Assembly (NCBI RefSeq): GCF_024170505.1
Contig: NZ_JALJYG010000011.1
Span: 1 to 64,000, forward strand
Source: Methanocalculus alkaliphilus
GTDB taxonomy: Archaea; Halobacteriota; Methanomicrobia; Methanomicrobiales; Methanocorpusculaceae
DNA: 64,000 nucleotides
Direction of reading: 5' to 3'
The notes under the pieces were generated by a model. The model ran no database searches and was not told the origin of the DNA. It worked only from the letters and a program-made list of their open reading frames with translations. The position numbers and the translations under genes were made by a program. Positions 46,451-55,786 of this stretch are shown piece by piece; the stretch's first letter is position 1, and the number at the start of each line of letters is the position of its first letter.

Positions 46451-47023
46451 TCAGTCGGAGAGGATTGTTTCAAGGGCTGAAAGCCATGGAGCGTCTTCTC
46501 TTCGGCACTGGTCGATGAATGAGGTGAGGGTGGACCTCCCCTCATCTCCTTTGAGATCTGGATTTTTTCCAGTGATCTGCCTCAGCTGCCTCTCAAGAGA
46601 GCCTGGTATGAAGAAGACAAGATGCTTCATCTCATCCTTGGTCTGATATAAGAATTCGGATTGCTGAAGGAGAATATCTTTTCGGAATCTCTCATTGGTC
46701 GCTCTTTTCAGTCTTTCCCGTGTCTTCTGATCATCATCAAGGCAGAGCAACAGCCTGTATTTTGGATTCATATCTTCATAGAGCGTAACGAAGTTATCTA
46801 TGCAGTTCTTCCACCCATCTTCGTCTTTGATGAGAAACTTTGTATTTCCTCCTTTTCTGCTGATGAATCTCCTGATAGTATTTGTCTCAGGGGTCCTTTC
46901 CCGGGTTTCGGTGAGCTCCCGATTATATACCGATCGATAGGAGATCCCCTTCTGATCAAGGAGGATCGAGAAGAAGATCAGGTCGTGCACTCCTTCACAG
47001 AGGATCACCGTCTTTTTTGGCAT
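46451..47023 (-). CDS. TOPRIM-domain protein, partner of OLD-like ATPase
   Basis: A 190-residue TOPRIM-like protein: catalytic-type Glu10 in VILCEGVHD and the acidic triad D96-D97-D98 in LLLCLDDDQK, with a positively charged helix after it. TOPRIM folds cut or ligate DNA or RNA with metal ions. The gene lies two bases after the stop of an ABC-type ATPase; such pairs form split OLD-family nucleases and several anti-phage systems. The small size is closer to DUF3226/DUF4435-type partners than to a fused OLD protein. It is convergent with hmgA (stops two bases apart). Confidence 0.75.
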   Translation of the reverse strand: MPKKTVILCEGVHDLIFFSILLDQKGISYRSVYNRELTETRERTPETNTIRRFISRKGGNTKFLIKDEDGWKNCIDNFVTLYEDMNPKYRLLLCLDDDQKTRERLKRATNERFRKDILLQQSEFLYQTKDEMKHLVFFIPGSLERQLRQITGKNPDLKGDEGRSTLTSFIDQCRREDAPWLSALETILSD

Positions 47024-47025
47024 AT

Positions 47026-48225
47026 TCAGATGCCCCGGAGGTCAAGTTTCAGATCTTCGATGACTCTTCTCCCCTCATCGACGGTGTAATCGAACTTCTC
47101 GATTGTCACACCGTCACTTGCCATCTTTGAGATGAGAAGGAGTTCTTTCTCAGCTTCATCCTCAGGGTACTCCAGTGCAATCTGGATGAGGTCGTAACTG
47201 TGGGTCGTCATGAAGACCTGGACGTTGAGTTCTGGTGCATAGGTAAAGAGGGTCTCTATCAGGATGGTGAGATATTCGGGGTGGAGATGATTCTCCGGCT
47301 CTTCGATGAGGAGAATACCATCTGTTGCTCTGCGGAGATGGTACAGGATGGAGAGAAGGGTGATGAATCCGTCGCCATGAGCTGATATCGGGACGGTCTC
47401 GATCCTGTCACCTCTTCTGTACAGGACATTATCCTGCGTCAGCCTCAAAAGGTCTCTGACGAGATTATGTTCTTTGATGAACTGTTCAAGGAGATGAATC
47501 TCTTCATCCGCCATCTTTTTTATGGAGAGTTTCTCTCTATGGGAGATTTTTATGATGGGTTGTTCTATTTCGCTGGAAGATTCTTTGAATGGCTGATAGT
47601 GACCGAAGCGGTTTGATAAAGATGTCGTCAACATCCGATATGCAGAAACAGGACGAATCCGGCGCCTCTTTGTAGTGATGCCGGGATCGTCTGACTGGTG
47701 ATGTTGTGGCTGTCTCTCTTCTGCATCCTCGATGATCTCCCTGAGTTGTTCAGTTATGATCTGTCTCTCTGACAAATTGTATGGTATAACCGTATAGGCG
47801 GACCCTGATCTGATAATGATGAACTCATGGGAGTCAAGGATGATCTTCAGGTATGCCTCCTGAAACTCATCATCGTAATATTCGAGATCTTCGAGAAGCA
47901 TGGAGAGAAGATACTCCCTGATCTCAGTGTATGAGTCAGGCTGTGCCTTCCTATAGATGTCAAGGGATCGATATATGGTGATCTCGTTTCTGTCAGAGAG
48001 TATTCTGGCTGTTGGTTCACCGTCTTTTATGAAGTTCGGAGTCTTTCCCTCCTCAAATGATCTCCTCTCTGCCCCATCTCCTCCTTCGCTTATATATATG
48101 GCATCCAGAAGGGCAGACTTTCCGGTATTATTCTTGCCGCAGATGATATTCAGCTGATGCGGCGTGTAATCAAGGCTTCCTATAGCCCTGAAATTCTCGA
48201 TATGGAGTTTGGTGATTCTGCCCAT
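47026..48225 (-). CDS. OLD-like/SMC-type AAA ATPase
   Basis: A 399-residue ATPase: Walker A GKNNTGKS at 30-37 after the typical KLHIENFRAIGSLDY start, Walker B LLIEEPENHLHPE near residue 300, and the switch histidine in TTHSYDLIQ. There is no C-terminal TOPRIM; that activity is in the next gene. Family relatives include RecF-like ATPases, class 2 OLD proteins and the ATPase of PARIS-like defence systems. A minus-strand TATA box 25-30 bases upstream suggests a leaderless mRNA. Codon use is less GC-biased than in the neighbouring hmgA, which hints at transfer. Confidence 0.82.
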   Translation of the reverse strand: MGRITKLHIENFRAIGSLDYTPHQLNIICGKNNTGKSALLDAIYISEGGDGAERRSFEEGKTPNFIKDGEPTARILSDRNEITIYRSLDIYRKAQPDSYTEIREYLLSMLLEDLEYYDDEFQEAYLKIILDSHEFIIIRSGSAYTVIPYNLSERQIITEQLREIIEDAEERQPQHHQSDDPGITTKRRRIRPVSAYRMLTTSLSNRFGHYQPFKESSSEIEQPIIKISHREKLSIKKMADEEIHLLEQFIKEHNLVRDLLRLTQDNVLYRRGDRIETVPISAHGDGFITLLSILYHLRRATDGILLIEEPENHLHPEYLTILIETLFTYAPELNVQVFMTTHSYDLIQIALEYPEDEAEKELLLISKMASDGVTIEKFDYTVDEGRRVIEDLKLDLRGI

Positions 48226-49002: not shown

Positions 49003-49015
49003 AACTATATCATAA
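49003..49015 (+). promoter_or_regulatory. TATA box of the corrinoid protein - kinase operon
   Basis: AACTATATCATAA is centred about 28 bases before the ATG at 49037, so the operon mRNA probably begins at or next to the start codon. Confidence 0.55.
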
Positions 49016-49036: not shown

Positions 49037-49678
49037 ATGAAGAGTGGGAATGCTGCATCTCCAGCAGATGCCCTTGAAGTGGCCCTTCTTTCATCAGATC
49101 GTGTCGGTGCCCGGAAGATCCTCAGGGACTCCTGCAGCACGGATGAGCCATATCAGTGCATCACCGATCTCATCGAGCCCGCACTCAGATCGATAGGGGT
49201 AAAGTGGGCTGATGGGGAAGCCTCTCTCTCCCAGGTGTATGTCAGCGGGAGGATATGCGAAGAATTTATCCGCTCGCTCCCGGTTCCATCATCCGGGATC
49301 CGGCCTGATCAGCCGGTGATTGGTATTGCAGTCCTTGAGGACTACCATACCCTCGGAAAAGAGACGGTCATGACCGCCCTTCATGCTTCAGGGTACCAGG
49401 TGACCGATTATGGTGCCGGTCTTTTGGTTTCTGATCTTGTGGAAAAGATCAGAGATGATGGAATTGAGGTTATCTTCATTTCGGCACTGATGCTTCGGGC
49501 AGCCCTGAAAGTACGGGAGCTCACTACTTCCCTGAAAGAGGCGGGCCTCTCTGTCAGGGTGATCGTCGGGGGAGCCCCCTTTCTTTTTGATGAGCATCTC
49601 TGGCAGGAGGTTGATGCAGATGCCTTTGCTCATGATGCAGGAGAGGCCGTTTCACTGGTCGGGGGTGGCCTGCCGTGA
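49037..49678 (+). CDS. Corrinoid-binding protein (MtaC/MtbC type)
   Basis: The 213-residue protein has a helical cap domain (about 10-85) and a cobalamin-binding Rossmann domain. The cobalt-coordinating motif DxHxxG is intact as D102-Y-H104-T-L-G107, and the later SAL and GGAPF motifs that hold the corrin tail are also present. Such proteins normally carry a methyl group between two methyltransferases. Here the next genes are a UroD-like protein without the usual zinc cysteines and a histidine kinase. No substrate-specific methyltransferase lies nearby, so a sensory role is likelier than catabolism. Its stop overlaps the next start (GTGA). Confidence 0.9.
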   Translation: MKSGNAASPADALEVALLSSDRVGARKILRDSCSTDEPYQCITDLIEPALRSIGVKWADGEASLSQVYVSGRICEEFIRSLPVPSSGIRPDQPVIGIAVLEDYHTLGKETVMTALHASGYQVTDYGAGLLVSDLVEKIRDDGIEVIFISALMLRAALKVRELTTSLKEAGLSVRVIVGGAPFLFDEHLWQEVDADAFAHDAGEAVSLVGGGLP

Positions 49679-50706
49679 GTGATGGTGAGATGACCTCTCT
49701 TGAACGAACAGAGACTGCCCTCTCTCTTACTGAACCGGATCGTCTCCCACTCTTCCTCAATCTCACCATGCATGGAGCACGGGAGACCGGGCTTTCCATC
49801 CGGGAGTACTTTAGCGATCCCGCACATGTCGTTCTGGGGCAGGAAAGGCTGCGGGAGCGATACGGAGGGGACAGCATGACCGGATTCTGCTATGGTGCCG
49901 CAGAGGGGGAGGCATTTGGTGGGGAGACCATCTTCTTTGATGATGGTCCTCCAAACGCGGGAGCCCCGCCGGTGCGGGATATCGAATCTCTTGAGGTTCC
50001 CGATCCTACCATGTCTCCGGCACTTCTCCGGATGCTGACAGCGACCCGGATCCTGGCTGATCGATATGGCGACACCGTCCCGATTGCCGGAGTAGCCATC
50101 TCACCGTTCTCTCTTCCTGTGATGCAGCTTGGGTTCGGACGATATCTCGATCTCCTTCTTGCAGAAGATCCACTCTTCTGGCGCCTGATGGAGGTGAACC
50201 GGGAGTTTTGTATCACATGGGCCTCGCTCCAGATTGAGGCGGGTGCGACTGCGATAGTCTACTTCGATCCGGTCTCTTCACCGACGATCATCCCTCCGGA
50301 CCTTGCCCGAAAGACCGGTCTTGCGATTGCAAAAGAGGTTATCCGGGAGATACCAGGTCCTGTTGCGTACCATCTGGCCTCCGGACGGGCCCTTCCTATT
50401 GCCAGGGAACTGATAGAATCCGGAGCGGTCGCCGTTGGTGTCTCTGCACTTGAGAGTCTTGCTGACCTGAAAGAAGCCTTCAAAGGGGAGATTGCCATCA
50501 TCGGCAATCTGGATGGGGTTTCAATGCGGAACTGGTCTTTGGAGACCGCCACGCGGAAGGTGAGGGAAGCGATCGATATGGGGGCCCCGGGTGGCGGCTT
50601 TATCCTCTCTGATAACCATGGCGAGATTCCCTGGCAGGTTCAGGACCCGGTCATCAGGGCAATCGCAGATGCAGCACACCTGTATGGGAGATATCCGGCG
50701 CCATGA
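49675..50706 (+). CDS. Uroporphyrinogen-decarboxylase-like methyltransferase homologue lacking zinc cysteines
   Basis: A 343-residue TIM-barrel protein of the UroD/MtaA/MtbA group, which moves methyl groups between corrinoid proteins and coenzyme M. It starts with GTG overlapping the corrinoid gene. In CoM methyltransferases zinc is held by His-x-Cys and a C-terminal Cys. Here the first site reads AYHLASG (H233, Ala235) and the second reads LSDNHGEIPWQV (no Cys, His at 315). So thiol activation by the usual zinc site is doubtful. It may bind the corrinoid protein or another ligand in a regulatory way, or use a different metal set. The ATGA overlap with the kinase gene ties it to signalling. 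Confidence 0.85.
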   Translation: MSDGEMTSLERTETALSLTEPDRLPLFLNLTMHGARETGLSIREYFSDPAHVVLGQERLRERYGGDSMTGFCYGAAEGEAFGGETIFFDDGPPNAGAPPVRDIESLEVPDPTMSPALLRMLTATRILADRYGDTVPIAGVAISPFSLPVMQLGFGRYLDLLLAEDPLFWRLMEVNREFCITWASLQIEAGATAIVYFDPVSSPTIIPPDLARKTGLAIAKEVIREIPGPVAYHLASGRALPIARELIESGAVAVGVSALESLADLKEAFKGEIAIIGNLDGVSMRNWSLETATRKVREAIDMGAPGGGFILSDNHGEIPWQVQDPVIRAIADAAHLYGRYPAP

Positions 50707-52346
50707 GCCAGCAGGATTCGGGAGCCGGCATCCTCGTCTGCATAAATCTCAGGGATGAGGTCATAGCTGCTCTCAGGGGGACCGACTATGAGCGTCTTCC
50801 TCTCATCACCTTTCCGTCTCATACCTCTCTGAGTCCTGCGGACTGGAAGGGTGAGTATCTGAGATCGCTTCGTGAAGCGGGGGTCTCACCCCTGATTTTT
50901 GTGAGCTGTGGCTGCTCCCATCCAATACCTGCAGATCGGGACGTGGCGCATCTCAGATCCCCTGAGGTCTTTCTCACTGATGCAGAGTTTGGGCGTCTCT
51001 CTGGATCCGGTGTCTATATGGTCACCTCAGGGTTTCTGACGGATCTCTCCCCCGGAATGATCCACCTGAAGGATGCCGGGATCAGCCGGCTTGTTCATCT
51101 CCGTACACGATATGATCCTGATGCCGACGCCGGCGCAGAGATGATAGCTGCGGAGATTGGTGCAGATCTTGAGACATATCCGGTTGATCTCTCCATCTTC
51201 TCGCTCAGGCTCAGGATGGAACTCCTCTCTGCTGATCTCAGGGCCGAGAGGGAGAATAACGTTATAGGATGCCAGAATCTCGAATCAAAGGTTGCAGATT
51301 ACACGATGGCCTTCGATCTCCTCAGTGATATTGTAAATGCAACGACAATGGATGAGATATCTCTCAGGATAGAGAACCTCCTTCTTATCCTCTTCTCCCC
51401 ATCTGTAACTGAATATCGATATACTCCGTTTCCAGATGGCACTGATGGAATTATTCTTCCGATCAGGCATGGGAACGATATTTTGGCATGGTTTCGGATG
51501 GATGAATTTTCCACACCCGAGTACATAGAGCGATACCGAAACACTGTCGAATTTCTCCTTCCCGTCTTTGGTCTTGCAATGATGAATGCACGGATCTATC
51601 AGCAGCTCCATGCTGCAAATGAAGAGAAAGACGGGGTGATACTCCGGCTCAGGGAGATGCAGGAGGCACTTGCCCTCGCAAACAAAAAAATCAACCTCCT
51701 CACCGCAATCACCCGGCATGATATCCTCAATGACGTGACGGTGGTGGTTGCGCATCTTGATCTTGCAGGTGATCTCCCGCTCTCCGATGAGGTGAAGGCA
51801 ACTTTTCAGAAGCTGGATGAACAGATGGTCTCAATCCAGAGGAAACTTGAGTTTACCAAAGATTACCAGGATATGGGTCTTCAGGCCCCTGCATGGCATA
51901 TGATCCGATCCCTTGTCGCCTCCGTTTCAGCCCCGATTCTGAAGACGGGCAGCCTCTCTCTGCTTAATGATCTCCCGGATGTTGGGATCTTCACCGATCC
52001 GATGCTTCCAAAGATCATTCATAACCTGACACAGAATGCTCTCTTTCACGCCAGGGGTGCGACATATCTGCGATGGTCTGCATATGAGGCAGGAGCAGAT
52101 CTAATCATCTCCATCGAGGATGATGGTCCGGGTGTTCCCGACAATAGGAAAAAATCCATCTTCAAACCGTCGTTTGGGAGGAGCCATGGATTTGGGCTCT
52201 ATCTCGTCCAGGAGATACTTGCAATCACCGGTATAACGATCAAAGAGGATGGCCGGTATGGTGAGGGGGCACGGTTTCTCATCTGCGTTCCGGAAGGGCG
52301 CTGGCGGAGATCGCTGCCGGGTACGGAAGAAACGGATCGGATCTGA
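50703..52346 (+). CDS. Histidine kinase with DUF1638-like N-terminal domain, coupled to corrinoid genes
   Basis: The 547-residue soluble protein has an N-terminal alpha/beta domain (about 8-165) with CGC at 69-71. It faintly resembles DUF1638 proteins that accompany corrinoid methyltransferases. A GAF-like region follows (about 195-300), then a coiled coil, the H-box ITRHDILND with H339, and an ATPase domain (NLTQNALFHARG; EDDGPGVPDN; GRSHGFGLYLVQ) that looks intact. ATGA overlap with the UroD-like gene makes the three genes one translational unit. It is therefore a candidate sensor kinase reporting on a corrinoid or methyl-transfer state. The phosphate acceptor is not nearby. Confidence 0.85.
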   Translation: MSQQDSGAGILVCINLRDEVIAALRGTDYERLPLITFPSHTSLSPADWKGEYLRSLREAGVSPLIFVSCGCSHPIPADRDVAHLRSPEVFLTDAEFGRLSGSGVYMVTSGFLTDLSPGMIHLKDAGISRLVHLRTRYDPDADAGAEMIAAEIGADLETYPVDLSIFSLRLRMELLSADLRAERENNVIGCQNLESKVADYTMAFDLLSDIVNATTMDEISLRIENLLLILFSPSVTEYRYTPFPDGTDGIILPIRHGNDILAWFRMDEFSTPEYIERYRNTVEFLLPVFGLAMMNARIYQQLHAANEEKDGVILRLREMQEALALANKKINLLTAITRHDILNDVTVVVAHLDLAGDLPLSDEVKATFQKLDEQMVSIQRKLEFTKDYQDMGLQAPAWHMIRSLVASVSAPILKTGSLSLLNDLPDVGIFTDPMLPKIIHNLTQNALFHARGATYLRWSAYEAGADLIISIEDDGPGVPDNRKKSIFKPSFGRSHGFGLYLVQEILAITGITIKEDGRYGEGARFLICVPEGRWRRSLPGTEETDRI

Positions 52347-52935: not shown

Positions 52936-53044
52936 ATTACCCAAAAACCTATTTTTATAATTATTTTTTAATAATATCGTATATCATTTTATCGATTATT
53001 CAAGCAAAATGATAATTAGTAGGAGGCGTATATTCCCAATTGAG

Positions 53045-53830
53045 ATGTCATCATTCTCATGCCCAAAATGTGGTGCCCCGGTAAGTGCAGAGACCGGAAT
53101 CCATTTTATAAACTGTAAATATTGTGGAACAACCGCGTTTGTTGACAGAAGCGGAGTCATGTTCTATTATGTCCTTCCTTTTTTCGTTGATGAGGAGAAG
53201 GCCAAAGGCATATTCCGCAGATGGACCGCAAACCCAAAAGCCAACAAAGAACTTGAGTCGAAGGCAAAGATAACTGAAATCAAAAAAGAGTACTTCCCGG
53301 TGTACCAGTTTCGTCGGGATGTGGATGGAAGAGAAAAGATCTATGTAAAACCTGCAAAGGGGACGGTGCTCCCTGGAATGAGTCAGTTGATCATTCCTGC
53401 CGGGGATATCAAGATCTATGATGAGAAATTTAATCCCGGCGATGCTGTTGCCCTTGATGTGGATTTTGGGATGGACGCGTATCTTCCTGAACTTGAGGGT
53501 GAAGGGAAAGAGCAGGCTCTTGTATACTTCCCAATCTATGAATTCAACTATGAATTCGAGGGTATGACGTATAAAGCGGTCATTGACGGCTCCTCAGGAA
53601 AGATCTATACTGATAATTTCCCGACACGCTCATCTGTGCCGTATGGACTTGTTGCAATGGCTAGCTTTGGTATCGCCTTCTTTGGTGGTCTCCTCGGGAG
53701 CCTTGTTTCATGGATCTTTTACATTCTCGTCGTTGCCGGCTGTCTGGTCGGGTATCACTTCGCCCGGCAGGTTACGCAGGTGCCAAAAGAGCAACCTGCA
53801 AAAGCTGTGAAGGGGGTGAAAAATGGCTGA
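53045..53830 (+). CDS. Zinc-ribbon membrane protein 1 of SPFH operon
   Basis: The 261-residue protein has an N-terminal zinc ribbon (CPKC at about 6-9, CKYC at about 25-28), a large soluble part (about 35-200) with YFPVYQFRRDVDG and YFPIYEFNYEFEG, and two C-terminal membrane segments (about 203-245). It resembles zinc-ribbon proteins of bacterial ydj-type operons. The start is uncertain. The frame is open to an ATG at 53009 and a GGAGG lies at 53022-53026, but the ATG at 53045 begins right at the ribbon. Its stop overlaps the next gene by eight bases. It is probably an anchored adaptor of a membrane complex. Confidence 0.72.
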   Translation: MSSFSCPKCGAPVSAETGIHFINCKYCGTTAFVDRSGVMFYYVLPFFVDEEKAKGIFRRWTANPKANKELESKAKITEIKKEYFPVYQFRRDVDGREKIYVKPAKGTVLPGMSQLIIPAGDIKIYDEKFNPGDAVALDVDFGMDAYLPELEGEGKEQALVYFPIYEFNYEFEGMTYKAVIDGSSGKIYTDNFPTRSSVPYGLVAMASFGIAFFGGLLGSLVSWIFYILVVAGCLVGYHFARQVTQVPKEQPAKAVKGVKNG

Positions 53831-54848
53831 TAAGATCGTTTTTGGCATGAACTGCCCATCCTGTGGTGGAAGGGTTGAAGTTCAGGAAGGAGATCAGCTG
53901 GTTTTATGCAAATTTTGCAACAGCGTGCATGCCTTAAAGACGAAGGAGGGGATCTCAAAACTGATGTACAGGATGGCCATCGACAGGGACAAGGCGGTGG
54001 CCGCCGTGACCGCCTGGTTTAAAAAAGGATTCAAGGCGCGCGATCTCCCTCAGAAAGGTGTTATCTCTGAAGTATCCTCGATCTATCTCCCCTACTGGCG
54101 AATGATCGGGCGAGGCAAAGGGATAGTCTGTGGATATACGGAGGAGCAGGACAAGGATGGGAATACCAGTACGAGCTACTACAACAATGTTGTGGATAAT
54201 GACTACCTCTACTCCCGTATCGCCTGCGATGCCGGGGATATCGGTGTAACCTCCATCAAAAATGTCAAGGGGGAGATCCTTCCATTCCAGGACGAAGATG
54301 AGATTCCGATTTTTGAGGCGACTGAATCAAAGAGTGATGCCAGGGATGCCGGTGAAAAGAGGATCTTTGATCAGGCGCATGCTGATGGCCGCCGGGGAAT
54401 GCAGAAGGTCACGTTCTCGAAACTCTTTGTGGATACAAAGGGTTTTGAACTGGTATTCTACCCGTTCCAGGTGGTCCGGTATGACTACATGGAGAAGGGA
54501 TATTTTGCCGTCGTTGATGGCGTCACTGGGGACGTCCTCTCAGGCCGTGCTCCGGGGGATGCGTTTTATCAGAGCATCTCGATCGGTGTCGGCGGGGCGG
54601 TAGCCGGTGGGTTGACAGGAGGGGGTATCGGATACTCCATCATCACGGAGAGCGGACTGTTTGTTGCGACGACGATCATTGGCCTATCCGTCCTCTGGTA
54701 TGCATATAACACCTTCAGATACCGATCTGAGGTGATTGTTGGTGACCTGCCGAAACCGAGCTTCAACCCGATGAGCATGTTTAAGAAGACGGCTGATGTC
54801 CCCGTTTTTGAACCGCAGGGGAGCGTAGAGATCGTTGCGAGGTCATAA
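53823..54848 (+). CDS. Zinc-ribbon membrane protein 2 of SPFH operon
   Basis: A 341-residue protein with the same plan as its upstream neighbour: zinc ribbon (CPSC at about 11-14, CKFC at about 29-32), a long soluble domain with SSIYLPYWRM and a later FYPFQVVRYDY, and C-terminal membrane segments (about 245-300, a glycine-rich GGAVAGGLTGGGIGYSI followed by a second hydrophobic span). The YxPxW/Y motif after the ribbon recurs in the flanking genes, which points to paralogues. ATG overlaps the previous stop by eight bases. The function is unknown. Confidence 0.72.
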   Translation: MADKIVFGMNCPSCGGRVEVQEGDQLVLCKFCNSVHALKTKEGISKLMYRMAIDRDKAVAAVTAWFKKGFKARDLPQKGVISEVSSIYLPYWRMIGRGKGIVCGYTEEQDKDGNTSTSYYNNVVDNDYLYSRIACDAGDIGVTSIKNVKGEILPFQDEDEIPIFEATESKSDARDAGEKRIFDQAHADGRRGMQKVTFSKLFVDTKGFELVFYPFQVVRYDYMEKGYFAVVDGVTGDVLSGRAPGDAFYQSISIGVGGAVAGGLTGGGIGYSIITESGLFVATTIIGLSVLWYAYNTFRYRSEVIVGDLPKPSFNPMSMFKKTADVPVFEPQGSVEIVARS

Positions 54849-54850
54849 GT

Positions 54851-55438
54851 ATGGTATTTTTAAGGCCACTTCAATGCACAAACTGCGGGAATCCGATCAC
54901 TGCCAAGGCACGTGATCGGATCCTTATCTGTAGCAAATGCCAGAATATCATGGAGTTTCTGGAGGGAGATGTAAAAAAGGTCGACAGCACCATCGCGAAG
55001 TTCAAAAAGAACGCAAACTACGAACGGCTGTATATGCCGTTCTGGGTTATCAACACCGATATCAAGGTGAATAAGGAGAAGATTCTCGGTGGGAAGGTGA
55101 TGCGTTTTCTGAAGCAGGAGAAGAAGATGGCCGGGAATCAGAATCTCTATGTCTGTGCGGCAGATATCTCTGCTGATACCGTCAAAGAGTGGAATGTCGA
55201 ATATACCCTTCGGCCTCCTGCTATTGAGGCAGATACCGATTTCCATGGTGTGCCCAGGATTCCGGCCTGGATGGAGAACCCTGATGCCAGAAAGCATGCC
55301 GAGTTCATGTTTTTACGGCATGAGACCGAGATTTCAGGCACATTACAGGAGATCGACTATGAATTTACCATCAATTCGCATAAACTTGTGTACATGCCAT
55401 TCTATAAGAATGGGAATAAATATATTCCAGCGATTTAG
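54851..55438 (+). CDS. Zinc-ribbon protein 3 of SPFH operon (soluble)
   Basis: A 195-residue relative of the two proteins before it: zinc ribbon at the start (CTNC at about 9-12, CSKC at about 28-31), then a soluble domain with RLYMPFWVINTDIKVN and a closing HKLVYMPFYKNG. No membrane segment is seen, so it would join the membrane through partners. It begins two bases after the previous stop. It could be the cytosolic part of a complex with the two anchored paralogues. Confidence 0.7.
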   Translation: MVFLRPLQCTNCGNPITAKARDRILICSKCQNIMEFLEGDVKKVDSTIAKFKKNANYERLYMPFWVINTDIKVNKEKILGGKVMRFLKQEKKMAGNQNLYVCAADISADTVKEWNVEYTLRPPAIEADTDFHGVPRIPAWMENPDARKHAEFMFLRHETEISGTLQEIDYEFTINSHKLVYMPFYKNGNKYIPAI

Positions 55439-55450
55439 GAGTTTATTACT

Positions 55451-55786
55451 ATGAGAGCAGATGACAAGAGATTCCAGATGGGGTGGACAGCACTCGCCCT
55501 GATGGTTGGTGTGGCAATCCTCGTTGGCTGGATATCCAGCTGGGACATGAACATAACCGTATCGGTCTTCTTTATCGGTCTTGGACTGATCCTCGGAGGG
55601 CTTGGATTTGGTGTTGGCCCAAAGAATAACTATCTGATGATCTTCGCAGGTGTTCTTGGACTGGTTGGTGTGATCGCAATACTGCTCCGTCCCCCTGGCC
55701 CGGCATTTCCGGTAGCTCCGTTTCTTGGCGGTATAATCGTTGCCGCGGCACTTGCGTATATGGTGTATACCTATACTCAGAAATAA
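55451..55786 (+). CDS. Four-span membrane protein of SPFH operon (111 aa)
   Basis: A small hydrophobic protein with about four membrane segments (near residues 12-30, 33-55, 58-78 and 82-105) and short loops. A basic RADDKRF start puts the N-terminus in the cytosol. It has no cysteines or catalytic motif. It lies 12 bases after zinc-ribbon protein 3 and 31 bases before the helical protein, so it belongs to the same operon. A role as membrane core of the complex is inferred only from position. Confidence 0.65.
   Translation: MRADDKRFQMGWTALALMVGVAILVGWISSWDMNITVSVFFIGLGLILGGLGFGVGPKNNYLMIFAGVLGLVGVIAILLRPPGPAFPVAPFLGGIIVAAALAYMVYTYTQK

Follow-up and report, generated by a model that had tools for sequence, protein, structure and literature searches.

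A conserved gene unit of corrinoid protein, UroD-like protein and histidine kinase in methanogens: a probable corrinoid-based sensory system

The stretch of DNA analysed here (the window) comprises positions 1 to 64,000 of contig NZ_JALJYG010000011.1 from the methanogen Methanocalculus alkaliphilus (assembly GCF_024170505.1), and it carries three overlapping genes that encode, in order, a corrinoid protein, a UroD-like barrel protein and a histidine kinase (Table 1), referred to below as the triad. A first-pass annotation of the window had proposed that these three proteins form a corrinoid-based sensory system. We think it probable that the triad is such a system and that the kinase detects the corrinoid protein's state by means of an input domain related to DUF1638; of the interpretations that draw on all of the conserved features, this is the simplest. 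It gains independent support from two observations: the kinase input domain resembles DUF1638, a corrinoid-linked family, and the UroD-like protein has lost the zinc ligands of MtaA, which makes an ordinary coenzyme M methyltransferase function improbable. The part of the earlier proposal that cast the barrel as an MtaA-type enzyme is not supported in that wording. No description of the three-gene unit was found in the open-licence literature searched. For archaeal histidine kinases only a few signals have been established, and the sensing of methyl compounds, redox state or B12 by methanogens is an open question; the triad is a small, conserved unit with a predicted sensor domain that ties DUF1638 to signalling, and it provides an example of two enzymes that have apparently been converted into a receptor.

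Conservation of the gene order

The exact order of the three genes is kept in two methanogen orders and is thus not private to this genome; the first-pass annotation had named an order confined to this genome as evidence against its proposal, and the opposite was observed. When 232 Methanomicrobiales species genomes were searched with the kinase input region and with the UroD protein, a close UroD relative (at least 48% identical) was present in 29, two of these being cut copies. In almost all of the 29 the corrinoid gene lies directly 5′ and the kinase gene directly 3′ of the UroD gene, mostly with 4-base overlaps, and 26–27 of the units are complete; the others are cut by contig ends (in genomes G015 and G205) or damaged (in G061). 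At locus L093 the kinase gene adjoins too, and its longest frame begins early. A DUF1638 search led to the triad in the Methanosarcinaceae as well. When 186 genomes of this second order (the Methanosarcinales side) were scanned with a profile, 23 gave matches, and in 19 the three genes are adjacent; the labels Methanosarcinaceae and Methanosarcinales were assigned here from gene content and the M. acetivorans control. In a wider sample of the phylum (394 genomes, E-value 1e-15) no match was listed outside these two groups.

That the triad reflects chance or a purely local gene neighbourhood can be given practically no weight, since the overlapping order is conserved in more than 40 genomes and recurs with 4-base or short overlaps even where the kinases are only ∼20–30% identical. 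Correlations between the pairwise distances of the triad proteins are 0.84–0.92, which shows joint inheritance; such a correlation mixes shared descent with co-evolution and is by itself no evidence of contact. At three loci, L165 and L166 (G493, G305) and L163 (G285), the triads appear to be decaying, with the UroD gene in two pieces and no corrinoid gene seen in the sequence covered, or with the kinase gene split into two frames.

The corrinoid protein and the UroD-like barrel

The corrinoid protein consists of a B12-binding_2 helical cap (35.1 bits) and a B12-binding Rossmann domain (63.8 bits), and these domains together with a DxHxxG motif assign it to the MtbC/MtaC superfamily; its TIGR02370 score (74.4 bits versus a cut-off of 215.3) places it outside that named methyl-carrier subfamily. 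The intact cobalamin motif noted in the first-pass annotation (D102-Y-H104-T-L-G107) is present, and DxHxxG (102–107) is invariant in every triad corrinoid protein covered, as are SxLM and GGAP(F/Y) (GGAP is residues 178–181 of the Methanocalculus protein). All of the triads covered also have a GxxW motif in the cap (W57), where aligned methyl-carrying corrinoid proteins have F or Y. GxxW is one of the four elements of the B12 photoreceptor signature (GxxW, EH, GxxH and GxxxP; PMC11796333) and would suit a CarH-type, B12-dependent photoreceptor. However, the other three elements are missing from the Methanocalculus triad protein, and light sensing of this type was rejected on these signature residues; we regard it as exceedingly improbable. 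The triad is like CarH and the photocobilins (PMC11796333) in that a corrinoid-binding domain would serve for sensing, but it lacks most of the light signature, has its putative sensor and output on separate proteins and includes a UroD partner. A second B12-binding protein (217 amino acids) is encoded past the end of the window on the same contig. It has the photoreceptor elements GxxW, EH and GxxxP, with DxxH at the position of GxxH, and a gene for a histidine kinase (HisKA + HATPase_c) follows it after 70 bases; the two (L194:8303-10115; C11:67302-69114, 3.3–5.1 kb beyond the window) are a candidate light- or B12-sensing pair.

The second gene had been described as encoding a UroD/MtaA-type barrel. 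The UroD fold is clear (PF01208, 147.2 bits), and this is the only strong UroD protein in the Methanocalculus genome, but MtaA-type models score far below their cut-offs (TIGR01463, 84.9 versus 235.4; NF040654, 72.3 versus 400). Zinc ligands were compared between 48 triad UroD proteins and 28 aligned MtaA/MtbA-type sequences from five Methanosarcinaceae genomes. The first ligand Cys is present in 27 of the 28 comparison sequences, the remaining one (L218) being itself a triad protein with triad residues. In the triad proteins the HxC motif of MtaA reads x-x-A without exception (Ala235), although 37 retain its His (H233). The third zinc-ligand Cys is replaced in all 48 by an invariant His (His315) in an HGEIP motif. 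Both zinc-ligand Cys residues are thus lost throughout, so the protein is unlikely to methylate coenzyme M in the known way; it may instead perform other chemistry or plain ligand binding. A different corrinoid/UroD pair, in which the UroD protein retains a Cys near the third zinc-ligand position, occurs in G196 (L106:8959-10606), with the gene for a large GAF/PAS kinase 1.6 kb downstream.

The main rival to the sensory reading is that the triad is a small metabolic methyltransferase pair (which would demethylate some unknown donor, of an O-methyl or another kind, or serve in salvage) with a co-transcribed kinase that regulates the pair or other genes, the corrinoid being catalytic rather than a signal. 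A UroD fold and a corrinoid protein are the classical pair, and the retention of H233 is in keeping with such a role; in the UroD superfamily a His-Cys-Cys zinc site activates thiols, and in O-methyltransferases other residues may stand in for one Cys ligand or for both (PMC10418091). On the other hand, neither a second methyltransferase nor an activase lies beside the triad, no metabolic neighbour is conserved across the neighbourhoods compared, and the input domain of the kinase comes from a corrinoid-linked family. The earlier statement that no substrate methyltransferase is nearby holds, and a search of the whole Methanocalculus genome, which is 99.9% complete, revealed no member of the RamA, MtaB or MttB families (MtmB and MtbB were not searched). 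We consider a metabolic pair rather unlikely. The triad shares with MtaA/MtbA and MtaC/MtbC the folds of its first two proteins and the corrinoid motif, but it differs from them in having Ala and His for the two Cys, in its low family scores and in a genome where MtaB and RamA were not found. Similarly, type 1 mlp clusters combine MtaA-like proteins (Mlps) with a corrinoid protein outside classical methylotrophy; these have several Mlps, almost invariably with His-Cys-Cys, and an activase, and no histidine kinase is mentioned for them (PMC10418091), whereas the triad has neither several Mlps nor an activase, has lost the zinc site and includes a histidine kinase.

An intact corrinoid pocket, a lost zinc site and a genome in which MtaB and MttB were not found would also suit sensing without any methyl chemistry, whether of cobamide supply or, at the cobalt, of redox potential or a gas (O2, CO or NO). 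This would leave the invariant retention of the UroD-like barrel unexplained, and it seems to us decidedly improbable.

The histidine kinase and its input domain

The third gene encodes a complete histidine kinase, as first annotated: HATPase_c matches at 50 bits (residues 437–531), and the H-, N- and G-box residues H339 (the H-box His), D340, N343, N441, N445, D473, G475, G477, G496 and G498 are present in 45 of 45 triad kinases; the HisKA match is weak (13.8 versus a cut-off of 26.9 bits). Upstream of the H-box lie the DUF1638-like domain (residues ∼1–190) and a region (∼198–305) that appears GAF-like by pattern only, and some orthologues have PAS domains inserted between the input and kinase parts. 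The MsmS and RdmS kinases of Methanosarcina acetivorans, which sense through heme or thiols and have several PAS/GAF domains and no phosphorylatable His (PMC6944256), are also methanogen sensor kinases linked to methyltransferase genes; the triad kinase differs from them in its intact, invariant H-box and its DUF1638-like domain.

Thirteen of 22 kinase orthologues match DUF1638 (PF07796; best 7.8e-7), and the Methanosarcinaceae orthologue L145 reaches 32.6 bits against the curated cut-off of 27. A profile of the kinase input region retrieves stand-alone DUF1638 proteins, and profile-profile comparison of this region with DUF1638 (hhalign) gives a probability of 96.1% and an E-value of 3.5e-9. 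By this homology, traced through orthologues and profiles, the input domain is a strongly diverged DUF1638 domain. Thiol sensing by its N-terminal Cys residues was considered and rejected, as these are not kept in the Methanosarcinaceae kinases.

The link between DUF1638 and corrinoid activation is good but indirect. In Phaeobacter inhibens a DUF1638 gene (PGA1_c13340) adjoins the gene for the B12-binding portion of a split methionine synthase, its phenotype is rescued by methionine and is one of methionine synthase/corrinoid reactivation, and it co-occurs with a RamA-like activase, without a specific role having been proposed by the authors (PMC5764234). Ruegeria growing on methylated compounds raises DUF1638 along with RamA, and the protein is cited there as a predicted helper in recharging cobalamin (PMC12478193). 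Another Methanomicrobiales genome has the gene row corrinoid protein (mtaC), MtaB, RACo/RamA and DUF1638 (L186). Most other archaeal DUF1638 genes examined are not beside a corrinoid gene, and several adjoin hydantoinase-like ASKHA genes; those at L171, L181 and L184 lie beside hydantoinase-A-like ASKHA genes, possibly a second type of activase. The stand-alone Phaeobacter protein (PMC5764234) and the kinase input domain are homologous and share the link to a corrinoid protein, but the triad version is strongly diverged and fused to the GAF-like region and histidine kinase.

These features suggest the following working model of a corrinoid sensor. In the corrinoid protein, His104 would hold a B12-type cofactor. 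The UroD-like barrel, having no MtaA zinc site, would no longer make methyl-coenzyme M and might instead bind a small ligand or capture a methyl group, thereby determining which state the cofactor is in. Through its DUF1638-like domain the kinase would dock on the corrinoid protein, perhaps in the way that stand-alone DUF1638 proteins do in corrinoid activation. Phosphorylation at H339 would then depend on whether the cofactor is methylated, Co(I), Co(II) or empty, and an unlinked response regulator would carry the output. The predicted signal could be a methyl group, redox state, a gas or B12 supply; contacts among the three proteins, cofactor binding and phospho-output are likewise presumed in this model. 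A more specific proposal, to which we give slightly less than an even chance, is that the triad represents a class of three-protein signalling units. In these, a degenerate methyltransferase together with a corrinoid protein would act purely as the receptor, and a domain derived from corrinoid activation would pass the cobalt or methyl state to the kinase.

Several points weigh against a sensory system of this kind. The Methanocalculus kinase itself has no Pfam match to PF07796 over residues ∼1–190, the N-terminal Cys residues of the input domain are not kept in all triads, and an AlphaFold model of the kinase (from a two-row alignment) reached a predicted local distance difference test score of only 31 and gave no view of a complex. 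Two genomes (G110 and G111; L107 and L108) carry a related DUF1638-like kinase with no corrinoid or UroD genes nearby, so the triad partners of the kinase may be dispensable. The absence of Pfam families from the genome leaves room for unknown methyltransferases. Finally, no response regulator is conserved beside the triad across the neighbourhoods compared; this is not unusual, since most M. acetivorans kinases are orphans (PMC11784639).

Gene layout and neighbouring genes

The overlaps of the three genes, given earlier as GTGA and ATGA, agree with the open reading frame coordinates (49037–52346, all on the + strand), and the GTG start of the UroD gene matches the N-termini of its orthologues. 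The TATA box reported just upstream corresponds to a TATA-like element, CTATATCAT, ∼26 bases 5′ of the ATG of the corrinoid gene. Aligned upstream sequences of congeners show a CTTTATC-type element equally far from the gene, and the position of the predicted element suggests a very short leader on the triad transcript. The closest named relative genome is that of M. chunghsingensis, whose kinase is 87% identical.

Table 1. Features of the triad locus, in window coordinates
Feature	Position	Strand	Size or extent	Basis
TATA-like promoter element CTATATCAT (predicted)	49005-49013	+		Sequence and congener upstream alignment
Corrinoid protein gene	49037-49678	+	213 amino acids	Pfam; motifs invariant across triads
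UroD/MtaA-like barrel gene	49675-50706	+	343 amino acids, GTG start	Pfam, NCBIfam; alignment of 48 triads
Histidine kinase gene	50703-52346	+	547 amino acids	Pfam, profile comparison, invariant residues
DUF1638-like input domain of kinase	50703-51272	+	Residues ∼1-190	Orthologue Pfam matches, hhalign

Downstream of the triad there is a tightly packed gene row on the + strand (53009–55786), in which some products begin with a CxxC zinc-ribbon-like segment and have hydrophobic C-termini; none of the genes tested matched a Pfam family above its cut-off. On the other side, an AAA_15-type ATPase gene has a short partner gene directly downstream, and this pair (46451–48225, − strand) stays near the triad in several congeners.
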